Positions 40,823-49,474 of a stretch of 64,000 nucleotides of DNA are shown one piece after another (position 1 is the first letter of the stretch; every line of letters begins with the position of its first letter). Where the stretch lies: assembly GCF_024612015.1 (NCBI RefSeq), contig NZ_CP102512.1, forward strand, positions 1,798,001 to 1,862,000, in the 5' to 3' direction. The notes under the pieces are model-generated. The model saw only the letters and a program-made list of their open reading frames with translations, was not told the origin of the DNA and made no database searches. The DNA comes from Streptomyces sp. CA-210063 (GTDB lineage: Bacteria; Actinomycetota; Actinomycetes; Streptomycetales; Streptomycetaceae). The position numbers and the translations under genes were made by a program.

Positions 40823-41107
40823 TCACGAAGCAGGCTTGTCCGAGTGGCCCAGGGACTTTCCCGGGGCCACTCGGTCGCGTACGGCCTGCTTCACCGCCGT
40901 CGGTTCCGGGAAGCCCTGGTCGCGGCGGTCCCAGACGACCTCGTCGTTGACACGGACGACGAAGATCCCGCCCTTGCCGGGCTTGAGAGCCAGCTCGGTC
41001 AGTTCGGCTTCGAAGGTGGTCAGGAGTTCCTGCGCCAGCCAGGCGGCACGCGGCAGCCAGCGGCACTGGGTGCAGTACTCGATCTCGACCCGCTGAACAT
41101 CTGTCAT
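40823..41107 (-). CDS. SelT/SelW/SelH (Rdx) family redox protein
   Basis: 94 residues from ATG 41107: RVEIEYCTQCRWLPRAAWLA carries the CxxC redox motif (Cys where eukaryotes have Sec), and KGGIFVVRVNDEVVWDRRDQ completes the thioredoxin-like fold. Start ATG overlaps the upstream kinase stop by ATGA. Thiol redox role inferred from the family. The last codons overlap a terminator hairpin. Confidence 0.87.
   Translation of the reverse strand: MTDVQRVEIEYCTQCRWLPRAAWLAQELLTTFEAELTELALKPGKGGIFVVRVNDEVVWDRRDQGFPEPTAVKQAVRDRVAPGKSLGHSDKPAS
40827..40892. terminator. Two-tier hairpin at the convergence of aceB and the SelW-like gene
   Basis: The inner stem CCGAGTGGCCC (40840-40850) pairs with GGGCCACTCGG (40864-40874). 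The outer stem GAAGCAGGC (40827-40835) pairs with GCCTGCTTC (40884-40892). It lies 44 bp after aceB but inside the last codons of the minus-strand gene, so one structure may end transcription from both sides. Confidence 0.72.
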
Positions 41108-42015
41108 CCCAGGTGTACCGACCAATCCTGTTCCGCCGCCGGTTTGCCGTGCAGGTCCGGGACCCGCTTGAGCCAGTTCGGACGGCCCTGCTGCGTCCTC
41201 GCCGCGCGGAGGGCCTCCTCTGCGGCGAGTTCCTCCCGGGTGGGGAAGTCGGTGGGGAGCCAGGCCGCGGAGGCCCGCACGCGCGCGTGGAGGTACTCCA
41301 CGTACGCCTCACGCGCCTTCTCCGGCGTCTCGAAGTCCGTGAGCCAGGCGTCGGGCACCTCCGCGACGATCCGCCGCAGCAGCTCCTCCGTCACCTTCGG
41401 CGCGAGTTCGGCGTCGGCCGCGCGTACGTCGGGGGCGTAGTGGCCGAGGGCATGATGGCGGAAGTCGTACGCCTTCGCGGGGTCCGAGGCGTCCCAGCGG
41501 TGGTGGAAGACGAGGGCCGCGCCGTGGTCGATCAGCCAGAGGCGCGGGGGTGTCGTGCCGAACGTGGGCCAGATCATGAGGTTCGAGCTGTGGACGGTGC
41601 GGTCGACGTTGACCGTCAGGGCGTCCAGCCAGATGACCCTCCCCGCCTCCAGCGGGTCGACGCGGAACTCCTTCGCGACCTCCGGCGTGAAGTCCTTCGC
41701 GCCCGGCAGGTAGTCCATGCCGAGGTTGAGGCCGGCGCTCGCGCCGTGGAGCTCCCGCACCTCCTGGTGCGGCTCGTGCTCGGCGATCGCCGGGTCGAAG
41801 TGCGCGAGGACCAGCTCGGGGAACCTCAGGCCGAGCGCCCGCGCCAGCTCCCCCACGATCACCTCGGCGACCAGCGCCTTGCGTCCCTGGGCCGAGCCCG
41901 TGAACTTCACGACGTAGGTGCCCAGGTCGTCGGCCTCGACGATTCCGGGGACGGAGCCGCCGGAGCGCAGGGGTTCGATATAGCGAGTAGCGGTGACCTT
42001 TCTCAGCATATTCAA
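41104..42015 (-). CDS. HipA-like kinase-fold protein
   Basis: 303 residues from ATG 42015 (ATG 42009 is equally possible; TGGGGGG lies upstream). YVVKFTGSAQGRKALVAEVI holds the ATP-binding Lys. DALTVNVDRTVHSSNLMIWP is the catalytic D-x-N-x-D-R...N segment and LWLIDHGAALVFHHRWD the metal-binding Asp motif. This is the stand-alone HipA_2 group, without a HipB antitoxin next to it, so a toxin role is not implied. Co-translated with the SelW-like protein. Confidence 0.82.
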   Translation of the reverse strand: MNMLRKVTATRYIEPLRSGGSVPGIVEADDLGTYVVKFTGSAQGRKALVAEVIVGELARALGLRFPELVLAHFDPAIAEHEPHQEVRELHGASAGLNLGMDYLPGAKDFTPEVAKEFRVDPLEAGRVIWLDALTVNVDRTVHSSNLMIWPTFGTTPPRLWLIDHGAALVFHHRWDASDPAKAYDFRHHALGHYAPDVRAADAELAPKVTEELLRRIVAEVPDAWLTDFETPEKAREAYVEYLHARVRASAAWLPTDFPTREELAAEEALRAARTQQGRPNWLKRVPDLHGKPAAEQDWSVHLG

Positions 42016-42031: not shown

Positions 42032-42350
42032 TTACCTTACATTCCACGGACAGCTCCAAGGTGGTGCACTCCGGCAAACCTCCCCGATCAGTCCGTCGAT
42101 GGCGGTGCGCCCCTCACTTCGGGCCTGCGGCATGAAGTGAGCATAGTAACCAAGCGTGACAGCCGGGGAGGAGTGCCCGAGCCATCGAGCCATCGTCACC
42201 ACGGACTCCCCCACTCCCCCACTCCCCCACCTCCAGCGTGATCGAGGTGTAGGCGTGCCGCAGCACATGAAAGCCGTCTTTCGGCGTCGCATGCCGGCGG
42301 CGGCCGTACGCAGGCTCCGGCAGGCGGCCTCACGGGAGAAGCCTCCGGGT
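42032..42350 (-). pseudogene. C-terminal remnant of a tyrosine integrase, frameshifted by repeat expansion
   Basis: The minus strand reads ATPKDGFHVLRHAYTSITLE with the HxLRH box in one frame. After an octanucleotide repeat it continues in another frame as VVTMARWLGHSSPAVTLGYY, with the second His region and catalytic Tyr, to a stop at 42032. Removing two of the three repeat units (16 bp) restores a continuous integrase frame. The core-binding domain and most of the catalytic domain are missing. It is a relic of an integrated element; no tRNA or att site is seen beside it. Confidence 0.8.
42205..42228. repeat. Octanucleotide tandem repeat (ACTCCCCC)3
   Basis: Three perfect copies of ACTCCCCC inside the integrase relic. 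One copy corresponds to the expected coding sequence (GEWGS is inserted into EVGESVV); the extra two shift the frame. Confidence 0.9.
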
Positions 42351-43634: not shown

Positions 43635-43755
43635 ACGTGTTCATGCCATACTCGCCCCGAGACTCGTCAATCTGACGGATGGTCAAGTGGCGGGCCCGGC
43701 GGACTGAGAGAGATATGGACTGCGGGCGCCTTGGCAGGACGGGGGATCAGGGAGC

Positions 43756-44094
43756 ATGCATGATTCCACGCGCGGGGAGGGTGATCCGCCGCGCATCCAG
43801 GTCCGGCTGGTGGTAGCCGGCGGTGCATGTGGTGCGGTGCTGTTGGCGGCTTCGCTGGCCGTGAATCTCACTGGTGCGAACGACGTGACCTATCCGAGCG
43901 TCCCGACGCCGTCCGGGCTGTTGCCGACGTCCTTCCCGTCCGTCCCGGAGATGACTGGCCTGCCCACCGAGCTTCCGAGCTTCTCACCGCCCATGGATCT
44001 GCCCACGGACATGCCCACGGACATGCCCACGGACATGCCCACAGACCTGCCCAGCTTGCCGGACCTGTCGGGCCTGACGGGAGGTGGCTCGTGA
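43756..44094 (+). CDS. Single-span membrane protein with Pro/Thr/Asp repeat tail
   Basis: 112 residues from ATG 43756. Residues 17-38 are one hydrophobic span (VRLVVAGGACGAVLLAASLA). The rest is an extracytoplasmic Pro/Thr/Ser-rich tail containing the tetrapeptide repeat DLPT/DMPT five times. First gene of the four-gene module; its stop overlaps the next start by GTGA. Not recognised; the tail looks like a wall-spanning spacer. Confidence 0.72.
   Translation: MHDSTRGEGDPPRIQVRLVVAGGACGAVLLAASLAVNLTGANDVTYPSVPTPSGLLPTSFPSVPEMTGLPTELPSFSPPMDLPTDMPTDMPTDMPTDLPSLPDLSGLTGGGS
43996..44055 (+). repeat. 12-bp tandem repeat encoding the DMPT units
   Basis: Five units of consensus GACATGCCCACG, the inner ones identical or nearly so. 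The repeat is in frame, so copy-number change would lengthen or shorten the tail by four residues at a time. Confidence 0.9.
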
Positions 44095-45572
44095 AGGGTT
44101 CGCATTCCCCGCTGCTCCGGGACGACCCGCTGGTACGGGCGCGGGCGCTGCTGATCGCGCGTACCGCCATCGCCGTATATCTGGTCGAGTTGCTGCTCAA
44201 CCTGTCCCGGCCGCATCTACTGCCCGACGAGCCGGCTCTGTCGATCTTCTACGACTTGCCCGGATCATCCGGATCTTTCGGCCGACTCCTCTCCACGCCG
44301 GAGCTCGTCTTCTGGATCGTGCTGGTGGGCATCGTGGTGGGCGCGGGCATCCAGATCTTCGCCGCGGTGACGGCACGCCGACAAGGCGGCGCGAGCGATG
44401 GAGGGCGGCGTGCGATCGCGCTGACCTGGTTCACCCTGGGCTGCCTGCTGCTGCCGTTCGGGCTGATATCCCTGACCGTCGTCTTCGAGTTCTTCCCGAT
44501 CGCCCTGCTGTGCGTGCCCAGCACCGTACTGGTCCTGCTCCTGCTGCGCGCGGTAGTGCGGTTCGGCGCGGTGTCATGGACGGCGCTACTGCTCGCGTTC
44601 GCCTGGGGCGCGCTGATCGTCTTCGGGCTCGGACGGGCATACACCAGCCTGGCGTTCGGCACGGTCTACGGCTACCTGGGCCCCAGCGCCGACACCGACT
44701 TCAGTGGCGTGACCGACCTCAGCGCCTTCACCAAGGGGCTCGACCACACCATCGACCTGCTGATCGTCCACCTCGGCGTCGTCAACGAGTGCATCGTCGC
44801 GGCCGGTGTCGTCCTGCTGCTGACGCTGCTGCGCCATCGCATCACCGATGCGGTGACCGGTTTGGTCCTCGGCGCCGCGATCGGACTCGGGCACACCTTC
44901 GTGGAAAGCGTCCTGATCATCAAGCTCTACGGCTCGCTGGGCGTCTTCTTCGGGCCCACCAGCGGCTTTGAGTACTGGATCCGCCAGTCGATCGGCCTGC
45001 TCGGCGGGCCGGTGACGTTCGGGGCGCTGATCGGGGCCGGGTTCGGCGCGGCGGTGGGTGCCCAGCGGCGCGGGAGGCTCGTCGTGGCGAGCCTGGTCGC
45101 GGCCATCGGCGGGGCGATCGCGGCCGAGGTCCTGTCGGGCTGGCTGGCGGGCGAGGTCAGTGGCCACGTTGAGGTCGGCAGCGCGTTCGACACCCTGGTG
45201 GTCTCGCCGTTCTTCTGGCTGCTGCCACAACTGCCGTTCATCGCGCTGGCCGTGGCCCTCCTCGTGACAGGCCTGCGCTCGCGCGCGCTGGTGCTGCGGA
45301 ACGCGGTGGTGGCCGAGACCACGGCGGAGGGGCCCATCACCGAGGCGGAGGCGCCGGTCCTCGTCTCGCCCGTGCTGCGGTTCTGGGCGGTGGTGAGCAC
45401 CTGGCGCGTGTACGGCCGGAGCACGGCGCTGGCCCTGCACCGCCTGCAGTCCGCCCAGTTGGAACTCGCGAGCTGGCGGGTGCGACAGGATCCGGAAACC
45501 GAGGCCGAGGGGGACGAGTTGAGGGCACGCGTCATACGAGGGAAGGTCCGGCTCCAGGTGATGAACCCGTGA
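44091..45572 (+). CDS. Polytopic membrane protein, possibly PrsW-like
   Basis: 493 residues from GTG 44091 (GGGAGG eight bases upstream, GTGA overlap with the previous gene). About nine hydrophobic segments between residues 20 and 395, then a 95-residue charged tail likely in the cytoplasm. IGLGHTFVESVLIIKLYGSL (265-284) recalls the intramembrane Glu motif of PrsW proteases, but I do not see the EExxK motif, so a protease role is only a guess. The next gene overlaps its stop by GTGA. Confidence 0.7.
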   Translation: MKGSHSPLLRDDPLVRARALLIARTAIAVYLVELLLNLSRPHLLPDEPALSIFYDLPGSSGSFGRLLSTPELVFWIVLVGIVVGAGIQIFAAVTARRQGGASDGGRRAIALTWFTLGCLLLPFGLISLTVVFEFFPIALLCVPSTVLVLLLLRAVVRFGAVSWTALLLAFAWGALIVFGLGRAYTSLAFGTVYGYLGPSADTDFSGVTDLSAFTKGLDHTIDLLIVHLGVVNECIVAAGVVLLLTLLRHRITDAVTGLVLGAAIGLGHTFVESVLIIKLYGSLGVFFGPTSGFEYWIRQSIGLLGGPVTFGALIGAGFGAAVGAQRRGRLVVASLVAAIGGAIAAEVLSGWLAGEVSGHVEVGSAFDTLVVSPFFWLLPQLPFIALAVALLVTGLRSRALVLRNAVVAETTAEGPITEAEAPVLVSPVLRFWAVVSTWRVYGRSTALALHRLQSAQLELASWRVRQDPETEAEGDELRARVIRGKVRLQVMNP

Positions 45573-45928
45573 GCCGCGCCGGTCGCGGCCGGAGGGCCGC
45601 CGCGAGGCTGGCCGCGGGTGCGGTACTGGCGGGCTGCGCCCTGCTGACGGCCCCGCAGCCGGCGTCCGCCTGTGCCGTCGGTATCGGCTACAAGCCGTCA
45701 GTGAGCATGGACGACCTGACCCACCGCAGGACGTGCTCGACCGGCTCTTCCGCGGTCGGCGTCGCCGGCTTCACCGCCCTGGCACTGGGAGCCCTGGCGA
45801 CGGCTGGTGTCGTCGTCTTCCGCAGGGGTGAGCGGGAGACGAGCGCGAACCCATGGGCCCTGGCCGACTACTTGGACGCCGCGGGTGTCGTGCCTTCGGC
45901 CCGGGGAGACGACGACCATGCGCCGTGA
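45569..45928 (+). CDS. Small exported membrane-anchored protein
   Basis: 119 residues from GTG 45569. A signal-type N-terminus (RRAAARLAAGAVLAGCALLT) ends near PASA, a short loop carries three Cys overall (two after the likely cleavage), and a second hydrophobic span covers about 63-84, followed by a charged cytoplasmic tail. Its reading frame overlaps the gene before it by GTGA. No family recognised. Probably an accessory of the module. Confidence 0.65.
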   Translation: MSRAGRGRRAAARLAAGAVLAGCALLTAPQPASACAVGIGYKPSVSMDDLTHRRTCSTGSSAVGVAGFTALALGALATAGVVVFRRGERETSANPWALADYLDAAGVVPSARGDDDHAP

Positions 45929-45997
45929 CGTACTACGTCTCAGCGCGCTGTTGGCGCGGTTGTTCCTCGCCGGGGACGCCGGGACGCCAAGGGGGAG

Positions 45998-48376
45998 ATG
46001 ATGGTGCCGATACGTGCTCGGTTGTGTCGCCGCGCCCTGTCCGTTGGACTGGCCCTGTTGCTGGGTGCGTCGGCGCCGGCCTGCAACACCGTCGCGGGGG
46101 CCGGCGACCCTTCCCCTCGCGGCGACAACAAGGCCAAGGTCTCCGCAGCCGGCTACGAGGCGTCGGCCCGCAGCACCACCCCCGACTACGCAGGCCAGGT
46201 GGCGCGCGAGTCGCCGCAGACGGATCTCGAAGCCAGCGCCGACAGGGCGAAGGCTGCTCTCCGGGAGAGCGGCTCCTCGGTGCCGAACGACCAGATCGAC
46301 GGGCTGGTCGACCGGGCCAAAGACCACCCCGACCCGAGCAAGGGCGAGATCAGCAAGAAGGACGCGGCCGATGCTCTCGACGAGATCACTGATGTCGCGC
46401 GCCGCAGGAACGTCAACGCCAACGCCGCGGCGGCGTTGGTGGGCAAGGTTGCCAACGCCCCCAACGCCAACAAGCTCGCCGAGGCCCGCGCGGAAGTGAA
46501 CGCCGTACGGCGCGCCGCCGACAACGCGGCACCCGGCACCCAGGTGGACGCCGCGGTCGGCGTCAACATGCGCCGCAAGGAAGCTGACCTCGGCAACGGG
46601 CAGAAGGTGGATCTCGACGAGATCCCGGACGCCGACGTGGTCTACAAGGACAAGAGCAGCACCGTGCACGTCAAGGAGGTCAAGAACGCCGGTTCGGCCA
46701 CGCGCAAGGAGGACTTCGCCAACCAGGTCGAGCGGCTCACGAAGTGGGCAGACAAGGAGCCGGGCCGCAAGGCCGCCGTGGAGATCGAGACGACGGACCG
46801 CTGGACGGAGATCTTCAGCCAGTTCAAGCCCGCCCGGGACGGGAAGCCGCCCAAGGACACCCGGACGGCGGCCGGCGAGATGGCCAAGAACGGCGTGGAC
46901 CTGAAGATCGCAGGTCAGAGTCTTTCTGCCGACCAGCTCGGCAGGATGCAGAGCGCTATAGACGAGCGCACGAAGAACGGCACGATGGACTGGCCGGAGA
47001 TGCAGGACCCGGAGAGCGCCAAGGCGTACTTGGGCATCGCGGCGCAAGAGGCCACCGCGGTCAAAGAAGCAGTCGAAGAGGCCAATAAAAACCTGGGGAT
47101 GACGCATCCATGCCCAGGACAAGACGGTTCCCAGGATCTCGGCATCGCGGCACTGTCCAAAGCCGCACCCTGCGGCGGCGAGGAGAGCGGGCTGAGTAGT
47201 GCGCTGTCCTCTCCCACCTACGGCGGCGTCGACTTCTCCAGTCTTCAACTGCGCTACCTGTCGGACCACGCCGGCTCCGGCGTGCAATACGCCTTCTCGG
47301 CGAAAGCCGCCCAGAAGGGACTGGAACAGGATTCCAGCTCGGGACTCAGCGCGCTGACGGAGAGCATGGCCGATCTCCGCACCTGGCTGGTGCTGAGCCC
47401 GGACACATTCTGGGTGAACCTGAGCCCGGACGAGCCGGACCGCATCATCGACACGAAACTCGGCCAGACGAACGCCGGCCGTGCGCTGCTGGAGGCGGAC
47501 TGGCGGATGAAGCAGACGCAAGGGGCCCTGCTCGACCCCAAGACGTCTTTCGGTGCCGAGTACTGGAGACGGCTCGGCGGTTCGTCGGGGCAGGTTTGCT
47601 ATTCGTCGCGGATGTGGATCGTTCCGGGCGACGTGGAGATACGCGAGGACGGAGACTCGCTCTACGTCCTGAAAGCCACGCTCGACGTCAAGGCGAAGGC
47701 GGAAGACGTCGCCGGGCTGGGCCAAAGCTCCTGTAACGCGGATCCTGCGGAAACGGCACGCAATGAGCGGTTGGAACAGGAAATGCTGGTCCCGAAGATC
47801 GTGAAGGCGGTCAACTCGGAGCCCGAGTACGGGCCGTTGCGCAGGGCGTTCCTGGCCCGTGTCGTCGCACAGTGGATACGCGACCGGCACGCCGGCGGCC
47901 ACAGCACCTCGTTCGACAAGCTGATCGATTCCGGTGACCTGGGCCCCGCATCCCTGCGCGGATCATGGCAGCCGAAGCAGGTCTACGACGCGTATCTCCG
48001 TTCCATAAACGAAGGGGATTTCACCTACGAGCGGACGACCCGAGTCGGCAACACCACCGTCACCTACGTGATGCGGACCGGCGGCGTCGACTTCGGCAAA
48101 CTGCCGTCGGAAAAGCTCAGTTCGGCGGAAATGGACCAAAAGGTGCCAAGACTGGCTGAAACCATACGGCAAGCGGCCGGACAGCCCGCGACGGCGTCGG
48201 ACGGTTCGGTCTGGCTGGGGGACACAGCAGCGGCACCCCAGATCGGCACGTGGGACAGGATCAGTACCTATCTGGGCGGCCGCACCGGAATACTCGTCAT
48301 CGTGGTGGTGGCCTTGGCGATCCTGCTGCTGTTCGTCCGCGACGGTTCCGCGCTACGACGCAAGAGCTCCGGATGA
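45998..48376 (+). CDS. Large exported protein with C-terminal membrane anchor, unknown function
   Basis: 792 residues from ATG 45998 (GGGGGAG before it). An N-terminal export signal ends near C29 (SAPACN, an imperfect lipobox). Residues 75-180 are helical and Ala/Asp-rich. Residues 205-270 contain EIPDADVVYKDK and HVKEVKN: PD at 210-211, D213 and E227-x-K229, an arrangement like PD-(D/E)XK nucleases. Residues 408-700 form a second region with LSPDTFWVNLSPDEPDRIID, TNAGRALLEADWRMK, QVYDAYLRSINEGDFTY and RTGGVDFG, which I recall from long unannotated proteins in distant bacteria. A membrane span at 764-780 and a short basic tail end it. An exported nuclease-like or binding protein displayed at the membrane is inferred; no function is proven. 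Confidence 0.75.
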   Translation: MMVPIRARLCRRALSVGLALLLGASAPACNTVAGAGDPSPRGDNKAKVSAAGYEASARSTTPDYAGQVARESPQTDLEASADRAKAALRESGSSVPNDQIDGLVDRAKDHPDPSKGEISKKDAADALDEITDVARRRNVNANAAAALVGKVANAPNANKLAEARAEVNAVRRAADNAAPGTQVDAAVGVNMRRKEADLGNGQKVDLDEIPDADVVYKDKSSTVHVKEVKNAGSATRKEDFANQVERLTKWADKEPGRKAAVEIETTDRWTEIFSQFKPARDGKPPKDTRTAAGEMAKNGVDLKIAGQSLSADQLGRMQSAIDERTKNGTMDWPEMQDPESAKAYLGIAAQEATAVKEAVEEANKNLGMTHPCPGQDGSQDLGIAALSKAAPCGGEESGLSSALSSPTYGGVDFSSLQLRYLSDHAGSGVQYAFSAKAAQKGLEQDSSSGLSALTESMADLRTWLVLSPDTFWVNLSPDEPDRIIDTKLGQTNAGRALLEADWRMKQTQGALLDPKTSFGAEYWRRLGGSSGQVCYSSRMWIVPGDVEIREDGDSLYVLKATLDVKAKAEDVAGLGQSSCNADPAETARNERLEQEMLVPKIVKAVNSEPEYGPLRRAFLARVVAQWIRDRHAGGHSTSFDKLIDSGDLGPASLRGSWQPKQVYDAYLRSINEGDFTYERTTRVGNTTVTYVMRTGGVDFGKLPSEKLSSAEMDQKVPRLAETIRQAAGQPATASDGSVWLGDTAAAPQIGTWDRISTYLGGRTGILVIVVVALAILLLFVRDGSALRRKSSG

Positions 48377-48393: not shown

Positions 48394-49116
48394 CTACCGC
48401 CTCGTTCTTCCGTTTCCCAAGTCGGCGAGCATCCCCAGTGCGGCGTCCGCGTTGTCCCAACTCGCCGGACCACCCGGCTTCACCGAGAGACGCTCCAGCG
48501 CCGCCCTGGCCTCCGTACCGCCCATCGCGCCCAGCAACTCGATGGCCATGTCGGCACCGATGTCCTCGATCACGCACCGCTCAGCCAGCTCCACCGCCCA
48601 CTCGGCGAAACGGCCCGGATCAGGGTCGAGAGCCAACCAGCGGAACACCGAGTCGGCCGTGTCATCCCGCAGGAACGGGATCAGTGCCAGCATCACCACT
48701 TCGACATGATCCACGACGTGTCGTTGCAGCGGGTACAGCTTCTCCCGCCCCCGCCACTCACGCACCAGCTCATCCACACCGGCCCACGTCACCTGGCTCG
48801 TGCGGGGCATCCTCATACCGACCGCTTGATGGAATTCCTCCCACACGTGCCACAACGTGCCAGGCGGTGGCGGCTCCGGCACACGAGGCGCCAATTCCGA
48901 ATCCTCCAGCAGCACGGTTACCACCCGCCGGGCCTCCGCCACCCGCTCGTCGGTGCGCGGCAGGTCCACAATCCGGCTCCAGTCGCATGCGTCCCAGGGC
49001 TGCGGCAAGGATCGCAGGGCGTGGGGCAGGACATAGTCACCTTCTGGATCACGCCACCGCGCGACCTGCGGATCCCACATCTCCTCGGCACTTGGCTCCG
49101 TGTCCGATTCACGCAT
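48394..49116 (-). CDS. Hypothetical protein (helical, possibly HEAT-like C-terminus)
   Basis: 240 residues from ATG 49116; an in-frame ATG at 49173 is possible. An acidic start (MRESDTEPSAEEMWDPQVAR), Trp-rich middle (LWHVWEEFHQAVGMRMPRTS), then regular helices (VVDHVEVVMLALIPFLRDD, AIELLGAMGGTEARAALERL) that look like helical repeats. No signal or membrane span. Convergent with the large exported gene, 17 bp apart. Not recognised. Confidence 0.65.
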   Translation of the reverse strand: MRESDTEPSAEEMWDPQVARWRDPEGDYVLPHALRSLPQPWDACDWSRIVDLPRTDERVAEARRVVTVLLEDSELAPRVPEPPPPGTLWHVWEEFHQAVGMRMPRTSQVTWAGVDELVREWRGREKLYPLQRHVVDHVEVVMLALIPFLRDDTADSVFRWLALDPDPGRFAEWAVELAERCVIEDIGADMAIELLGAMGGTEARAALERLSVKPGGPASWDNADAALGMLADLGNGRTRR

Positions 49117-49474
49117 TCCGCTGTCCCGCCAACCTCTCGCATCGGTCGTCCGCTCATGGATACCCGGGTACATTTTGGCGCTCTCCGGGTCGTCCAGGCG
49201 TGTGCATGGCCTTCATCTCTGGACCTGGCCGATGTGGCGGTCGACGGGCGGCGGGTGCGGTGAGGATCACCGAACTGGTCCTCGCTCAGTGCATCGAGTC
49301 GCCGGCTCCAACTCCGCCGAAGCAGCTCGCTCCCACCCTCGGCGGTGAACCACCTGGTCAGGCGGTCGCGGGCGGATGCCGTGAGAAAGCCACATGGAAC
49401 GGGACGACAGTCATCCAAGTGGGTCGCGCCCAGGCGGAGGCCACCGGCGGTGAGGCCGCCGGGGCCGAGGTCAA
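49117..49474. other. Gene-free region
   Basis: About 358 bp without a supported gene. A minus-strand frame across 49260-49420 (TASARDRLTRWFTAEGGSEL) has decent codon use but no start context or family likeness, and may be debris. Confidence 0.35.

Follow-up and report, generated by a model that had tools for sequence, protein, structure and literature searches.

In the polymorphic toxin systems set out in the accessible part of PMC3482391, a constant N-terminal part directs trafficking and the toxin forms the C-terminus, a layout in which toxin and immunity gene can be replaced together by one recombination at the 3' end. PrsW forms the N-terminal domain of fusions that end in a toxin there, and is presumed to be active; the same portion of that paper carries no mention of LPXTG, sortase or inverted, and its one "N-terminal toxin" concerns archaeal and fungal PrsW fusions. 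The reverse domain arrangement is described in the available text of PMC10730906 for TslA, a lipase toxin secreted by the type VII secretion system (T7SS), with its immunity gene on the 5' flank, beside the end that encodes the toxin. Here we describe a locus of four tandem genes, g1 to g4, and a convergent fifth gene in a 64,000-nucleotide stretch of Streptomyces DNA (hereafter the window; positions 1798001-1862000 of a single-contig genome of 10.86 Mb). The locus is real and is conserved in a minority of the genus. With a probability of about 0.77, we read it from its sequence as encoding a surface-displayed antibacterial polymorphic nuclease toxin, g4, of reversed domain order, with a linked immunity gene and a display or assembly module made up of g1-g3.

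The g4 product is placed as a reversed variant because its predicted toxin domain (approximately residues 71-348, termed g4N) is N-terminal, with the carrier domain (g4C) and the membrane anchor behind it. The order g1-g4 recurs in L022, L095 and L170 (loci and genomes are denoted here by L and G numbers), where the proteins are 48-85% identical outside the toxin cassette, and the four genes are thus found together elsewhere, in keeping with the operon proposed by an earlier note on this DNA. The DNA of the window aligned with that of L095 over 43734-45952 (75%) and 47216-48361 (86%), with no alignment between the two segments. With L022, the alignment covered g1-g3 (72.5%) and the region from approximately 47216 to the end of g4 (76.8%), again with nothing aligned between, and with L170 it covered most of g2 (66%) and the carrier (69%). 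The N-terminal protein similarity of the window to L170 was not above that of shuffled sequences. In L021, the whole of g4 (81%) and the immunity gene (84%) aligned with the window. Judged from these alignments, the toxin cassette has been exchanged at the N-terminus of g4. A 27-codon remnant ahead of g4 (Table 1) runs in frame into the toxin in L021, and is probably the scar of a cassette insertion common to the window and L021. The nuclease motif set and the operon of the earlier note are supported; the exchangeability of the N-terminal cassette and the adjacent immunity-like gene at 48394-49173 had been overlooked.

Exchange of the N-terminal part is matched by the separate occurrence of the two halves of g4. 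A search with g4 of 61 related genomes (own included) gave matches in 12, and outside the locus itself these were mostly to either the N-terminal or the C-terminal half alone; two of the genomes that encode close relatives of g4 are Streptomyces. The g4N domain was present in 16 of 392 genomes of the same genus, own included; of the 92 carrier proteins collected, only those of the window and L021 have it in front of the carrier. A further 16 copies were counted, and in these it ended 0-1 residues before the stop codon, as is usual for toxin domains (L157 and L160 lie in short frames, and other fragments were left out of the count); in G009 and G034 it closes proteins of 835-838 residues. The set of g4N loci omits the fragments L164 and L168 and counts a broken G009 copy, present as two pieces, as one locus.

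The residues D211, D213, E227 and K229 were invariant in 17/17 aligned g4N copies, and Q243 was conserved in at least 90%. Since these residues are invariant and the gene order recurs in L022, L095 and L170, neither the motif nor the operon is a chance occurrence, and the description of g4 in the earlier note as a protein that is exported, anchored at its C-terminus and equipped with a PD-(D/E)XK motif set was borne out, as was its numbering of P210, D211, D213, E227 and K229. Pfam Hjc, which we take to be a PD-(D/E)XK family, matched 2 of the 17 members weakly (best 0.0011), and comparison of g4N with Protein Data Bank (PDB) sequences returned three matches, none of weight (best E 0.16). AlphaFold models were built from 2-3 sequences only and were poor, with a mean predicted local distance difference test (pLDDT) score of 38.2 for g4 and 57.5 for the g4N domain. 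Around the motif, the predicted order of helix-strand-strand-helix would fit a PD-(D/E)XK core, at a pLDDT of 36-57 in this poor model.

The gene that begins 17 bases past g4 is predicted from its associations to encode the cognate immunity protein. Close relatives of its product follow g4N loci in G009, G221, G283 and G229 (phmmer, 1e-130 to 2e-52), and an iterated profile found the family after 15 of 17 g4N loci, the exceptions being L158 and L163. The profile matched 2 of 1175 called genes of the 92 carrier loci, both beside a g4N-bearing g4, in the window and L021, so that the family was seen at 2/2 carrier loci with g4N and at 0/90 without it. Neighbors outside annotated records were called with a simple gene finder that misses some genes (for example g2 of L022, which was found by listing open reading frames (ORFs)), and "not seen among called genes" is therefore weaker than absence. 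An orphan, interrupted toxin domain beside an intact-looking immunity gene was also observed in G009 (L032:14015-15462).

Table 1. Coordinates in the window of the predicted features of the toxin locus
Feature	Position	Strand	Description
g1	43756..44094	+	112 residues; one span (18-36); the Pro-rich tail after it looks external and bears DMPT/DLPT repeats
g2	44091..45572	+	493 residues; 8 spans; PrsW family PF13367; catalytic motifs degenerate
g3	45569..45928	+	119 residues; signal sequence, then a short ectodomain containing Cys and another span
27-codon remnant	45918..46001	+	other frame; resembles the g4 start of L095 and L022
g4	45998..48376	+	792 residues; signal, toxin, carrier, C-terminal membrane anchor
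g4 signal peptide	45998..46075	+	approximately residues 1-26, ASA before P27; read from sequence
g4 toxin domain	46208..47041	+	approximately residues 71-348; PD-(D/E)XK-type nuclease motif
predicted active site	46628..46684	+	D211, D213, E227-x-K229; Q243 conserved too
linker	47111..47173	+	Cys pair C372...C392
carrier domain	47183..48232	+	approximately residues 396-745; WVNLSPDEPDRIID ... TGGVDFG; constant
g4 C-terminal membrane span	48281..48337	+	residues 762-780; basic tail; without LAxTG sorting motif
predicted immunity gene	48394..49173	-	259 residues, no span, convergent with g4

All four ORFs were confirmed at the coordinates given by the earlier note. GTGA overlaps join g1 to g2 and g2 to g3, and g4 starts 69 bases past g3. 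Hydropathy gave one, eight, two and one spans for the products of g1, g2, g3 and g4, respectively, and none for that of the convergent neighbor. Upstream of the operon, on the minus strand at 40823-42015, lies a gene for a HipA-like kinase (PF20613) beside an Rdx-family (PF10262) gene. An integrase-like fragment suspected by eye at 42032-42292 found no Pfam support and was set aside.

The carrier domain closes other exported proteins of roughly 700-860 residues. It matched 82 of the 392 same-genus genomes, four of them by fragments alone. Among 245 genomes of the order there were matches in 45, of which 42 belong to the genus itself and the remainder comprise one full copy and two matches that are weak and short, and among 296 genomes of the phylum there were three, all in the genus; the genus, order and phylum samples overlap. 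Six plasmid records, all from Streptomyces, carried g4C. No match was confirmed in viral contigs, and a phage search gave no support for spread beyond the genus. The idea in the earlier note of a widespread domain of distant bacteria was unsupported within the reach of the search, which took in the phylum sample, viral contigs, phages and plasmids but no other phyla. Profile searches with g4C found no Pfam match (0/12 members) and no PDB match.

For comparison of the parts in front of the carrier, 92 carrier proteins were collected (the window, L021, L022, L023-L031 and L069-L148), comprising 80 full-length or near-full matches from the 392-genome search in addition to nine earlier sites. Left out were short fragments in G393, G016, G196 and G213 that are the only matches in those genomes, second pieces in G027, G161, G218 and G325, one duplicate copy in G277, and G218:C2. 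In G277, equal-scoring carrier copies lie at C1:52519-53511 and 11487323-11488315, toward either end of a contig of 11.54 Mb, and are therefore probably part of terminal inverted repeats.

By blastp, the regions N-terminal to the carrier in the 92 proteins fell into six clusters of 68, 12, 5, 4, 2 and 1 members; within the cluster of 12, L142 and L144 are a separate type joined through a single 75-residue match outside the motif. The carrier follows toxin-like domains in these copies: two nuclease types, several deaminase types, and one left unassigned. As far as sequence comparison goes, the family is modular. Outside the cluster of 68, and with the window and L021 set aside, 22 proteins remain, and 20 of them had an H-S/T-E...C..C motif; the C372...C392 pair of the g4 linker is, by eye, equivalent to an invariant Cys pair of these deaminase-type relatives. 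Pfam XOO_2897-deaminase matched 8 of the 22 tested at E<=0.1 (best 8.7e-19, L137), and a joint profile of the deaminase-type parts returned deaminases as its top three PDB matches (dCMP deaminase 0.022, APOBEC-3F 0.25, 0.29). The weaker members are assigned as putative deaminases by the motif alone. In the cluster of 68, eight aligned members have an R..DA.N...E.KS-like pattern in common, and Tox-REase-9 matched one of the eight tested (0.0013).

The cluster of 68 (L024-L031, L069-L094 and L096-L129, including the paralog of the window's own genome, L028:8646-10997) forms a sister class with a different end. A sorting signal of LAxTG type ends 64 of the 68 proteins and none of the other 24, g4 included, 23 of which end in a hydrophobic span, the exception being L135. 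The signal of L028 scored 27.6 bits against NCBIfam strep_LAETG, below the cut-off of 30. Clustering of adjacent genes revealed two mutually exclusive families that adjoin 66 of the 68 genes (42 and 24), nearly always on the 5' side. Members of the first family, of approximately 180 residues, were found at 42 loci by profile; the called genes gave 39 loci, all upstream and divergent, and a frame test placed 35 of the 42 upstream and divergent and 7 otherwise. The second, of approximately 241 residues, lies on the 5' side at 24 of the other 26 loci, in the same direction at 20 and in the opposite direction at 4; its member at L099 is a 78-residue frame only. No Pfam match was obtained for four members and one long homolog of the first family, and neither family was seen in the 24 loci outside the sister class. 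Both are candidate immunity genes situated at the toxin-coding end. No g2 match was found among the called genes of the 68 loci.

The g2 product belongs to the PrsW family by PF13367 (34.8 bits, E 1.5e-8, cut-off 23.5), as the earlier note had suspected. A profile built on g2 matched 367 of the 392 genomes; ten, own included, scored at least 355 bits, and the other matches listed, at 63 bits or less, are ordinary PrsW and a relic. In eight of the ten genomes with strong relatives, g2 lies beside a carrier gene, and in a ninth, G307, g1 and g2 precede a rearrangement hotspot (RHS) protein with a Tox-HNH-EHHH end. In G218, g1 and g2 precede a small gene that by eye resembles a toxin gene, and another with weak similarity to SUKH (0.0049, below the cut-off). 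Ten loci carry g1, g2 and g3 together with a carrier gene, namely the eight strong-match loci, L022 and the plasmid locus L170. At L023 and L140, the carrier gene comes first. A g1-like gene lay upstream of g2 in 12/12 g2 loci examined (L140 and 11 others), and a g3-like gene directly 3' of g2 in 10/10 g2-carrier loci examined. Among the 16 largest neighbor families listed, only g1 and g2 were common to more than two of the 24 loci outside the sister class. By eye, the proteins at L205:8719-9420 and L206:8633-12598 begin with a stretch that resembles g3.

The toxin-linked g1-g2 pairs lie at L206:6601-12598, where g1 and a g2 whose PrsW motifs are intact precede the RHS/HNH toxin, and at L205:6699-9956, where they precede the small toxin-looking gene. 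Genes for PQQ-type propellers (Pfam PQQ_2) lie directly upstream of g1-g2 at L205:5663-6841, L206:5185-6597 and L146:1480-3693, the last fused to a protein kinase, and possibly act as regulators. A relic of a g1-g2-carrier locus is present in G196 (L207:6821-7355).

A partner of the PrsW family makes it natural to suppose, as the earlier note did for one of its two options, that g2 is an active protease whose cleavage of g4 would set a diffusible toxin free, by analogy with the PrsW-dependent pathway of PMC3482391. That g2 scores over the Pfam PrsW cut-off speaks for such release, as does the fact that the g2 proteins of L023, L131, L140 and L145 have lost the first Glu only and retain one Glu, the Lys and both His, while the toxin-linked L205 and L206 retain the full EE..K. 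By eye, the g2 proteins of these toxin-linked loci, in G307 and G218, keep EE..K, E, H and H. The clade of the window is different. With the canonical PrsW paralog of its own genome as the motif reference, the first Glu, the Lys and both His were lost in 6/6 members and the second Glu in 5/6, the window being the member that keeps it; the Glu of FxxxE is kept. The PrsW score drops from 93-96 bits in L205 and L206 to 82 in L023 and 34.8 in the window. In this clade, g2 is probably a pseudoprotease, judging by the residues lost. Proteolytic release is unlikely because most PrsW catalytic residues are gone, although it survives better than the other alternatives.

A second alternative, also unlikely and ranked just behind release, is that g4 is a surface nuclease that scavenges or remodels extracellular DNA rather than a weapon, with the soluble neighbor gene incidental. 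The predicted export and anchoring of g4 would suit such an enzyme, and so would the single N-terminal nuclease-like family kept by the 68-member sister class and the lack of a visible immunity gene for the deaminase types. It does not account well for other long proteins that terminate in g4N and likewise have a member of the immunity family next to them, or for the deaminase-like domains that fill the slot in relatives, which have no obvious scavenging role. It is highly improbable that the effector proper is the carrier (396-745), with the N-terminal domains confined to modulating its action: the carrier is the conserved half of g4 and has no assigned function, but a constant carrier with swapped enzyme domains and domain-specific immunity genes follows the logic of polymorphic toxins, and the immunity family tracks the N-terminal domain across the carrier loci.

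Several observations weigh against the antibacterial toxin we favor. The nuclease fold of g4N is proposed from motifs and weak profile hits, most Pfam matches in this analysis were below curated cut-offs, and Foldseek with the poor g4N model returned nothing below E 0.001. The N-terminal part of g4 retained protein similarity above shuffled sequences to L095 (75 vs 39) and L022 (96 vs 38), a similarity for which the Cys-containing linker probably accounts. In the window and L021, the immunity gene lies at the 3' end, past the carrier and away from the toxin-coding end. In the sister class, the candidate immunity type tracks the carrier (nearest neighbor 59/65) as well as it tracks the toxin part (57/65), and the class has one N-terminal nuclease-like family and is not visibly polymorphic. 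The deaminase-type relatives had no shared immunity-like neighbor within 1.5 kb; this is the main gap, and some members may accordingly not be antibacterial toxins. An anchored nuclease would also need a way into another cell.

A surface effector, as proposed in the earlier note, nevertheless remains the best reading. The N-terminal signal would export g4, which would expose its N-terminal PD-(D/E)XK nuclease toxin while the C-terminal span behind the constant 345-residue carrier holds the protein on the membrane. The products of g1-g3 would form a membrane display or assembly module common to other toxins, in which g2 would have a non-proteolytic role, and the carrier may take part in delivery or binding. 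Delivery would be contact dependent and the activity antibacterial, with the soluble product of the convergent gene protecting the producer from the nuclease. More tentatively, and at somewhat less than even odds, the carrier and g1-g2-g3 may constitute an undescribed surface toxin delivery system of Streptomyces, with outward N-terminal toxins, a non-peptidase PrsW as membrane chaperone or channel, and cassette exchange at the 5' end. A literature search, mostly of non-subscription sources, found no title or abstract opening that describes the carrier family.

The locus would suggest a function for "hypothetical" surface proteins of the genus, and draws attention to a 345-residue domain without Pfam or PDB match found in approximately one-fifth of the sampled genomes of an antibiotic-producing genus. 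The PrsW series from intact to degenerate offers a place to ask about a non-proteolytic role in toxin export.

Within the genus, the nearest comparison is with C-terminal toxins (L032, L033, L209 and others), which have a homologous toxin domain and immunity family, as g4 does; unlike g4, they place the toxin behind several hydrophobic spans and have no carrier. At L209, the g4N gene follows Flp-pilin-like (Flp_Fap, under the cut-off), Tad-like and OmpA-like genes, and L153 has a weak Flp-pilin-like segment ahead of its C-terminal toxin (Flp_Fap 0.033). The available portion of PMC12605009 mentions a polymorphic toxin domain linked with Flp pilins. Toxins in part of the genus perhaps take a Tad-type pilus route. 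Pilus-like neighbors accompany the C-terminal nuclease-domain protein at L209:2892-8447; L032 and L210 are alike by eye, and L033 and L211 are not. A likeness to g4 may also be seen in the umbrella toxins, antibacterial Streptomyces complexes with polymorphic toxin domains (PMC11062931, PMC13274773, in the parts accessible).

Compared with the polymorphic toxins of PMC3482391, to the extent covered by the accessible text, the present locus has in common a constant trafficking part, an exchangeable nuclease or deaminase toxin, a PrsW-family partner, a nearby immunity gene, and Tox-REase- and XOO_2897-like domains. It differs from the PrsW pathway described there in that g2 is a separate gene with degenerate motifs, and in its domain order, which puts the toxin at the N-terminus and the constant part at the C-terminus. 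With TslA, as presented in the available text of PMC10730906, g4 shares an N-terminal toxin, a C-terminal constant targeting part and small helper proteins, and the candidate immunity genes of the sortase class resemble that of TslA in lying on the 5' side at the toxin-coding end. TslA is secreted by the T7SS and has a helical LXG-like domain at its C-terminus, whereas g4 has an N-terminal signal and a C-terminal anchor, a nuclease motif in place of a lipase, and a carrier without known relative. The swap of an N-terminal toxin breaks the polarity rule of polymorphic toxins, and g4 would join TslA of the T7SS as a second case of reversed order.

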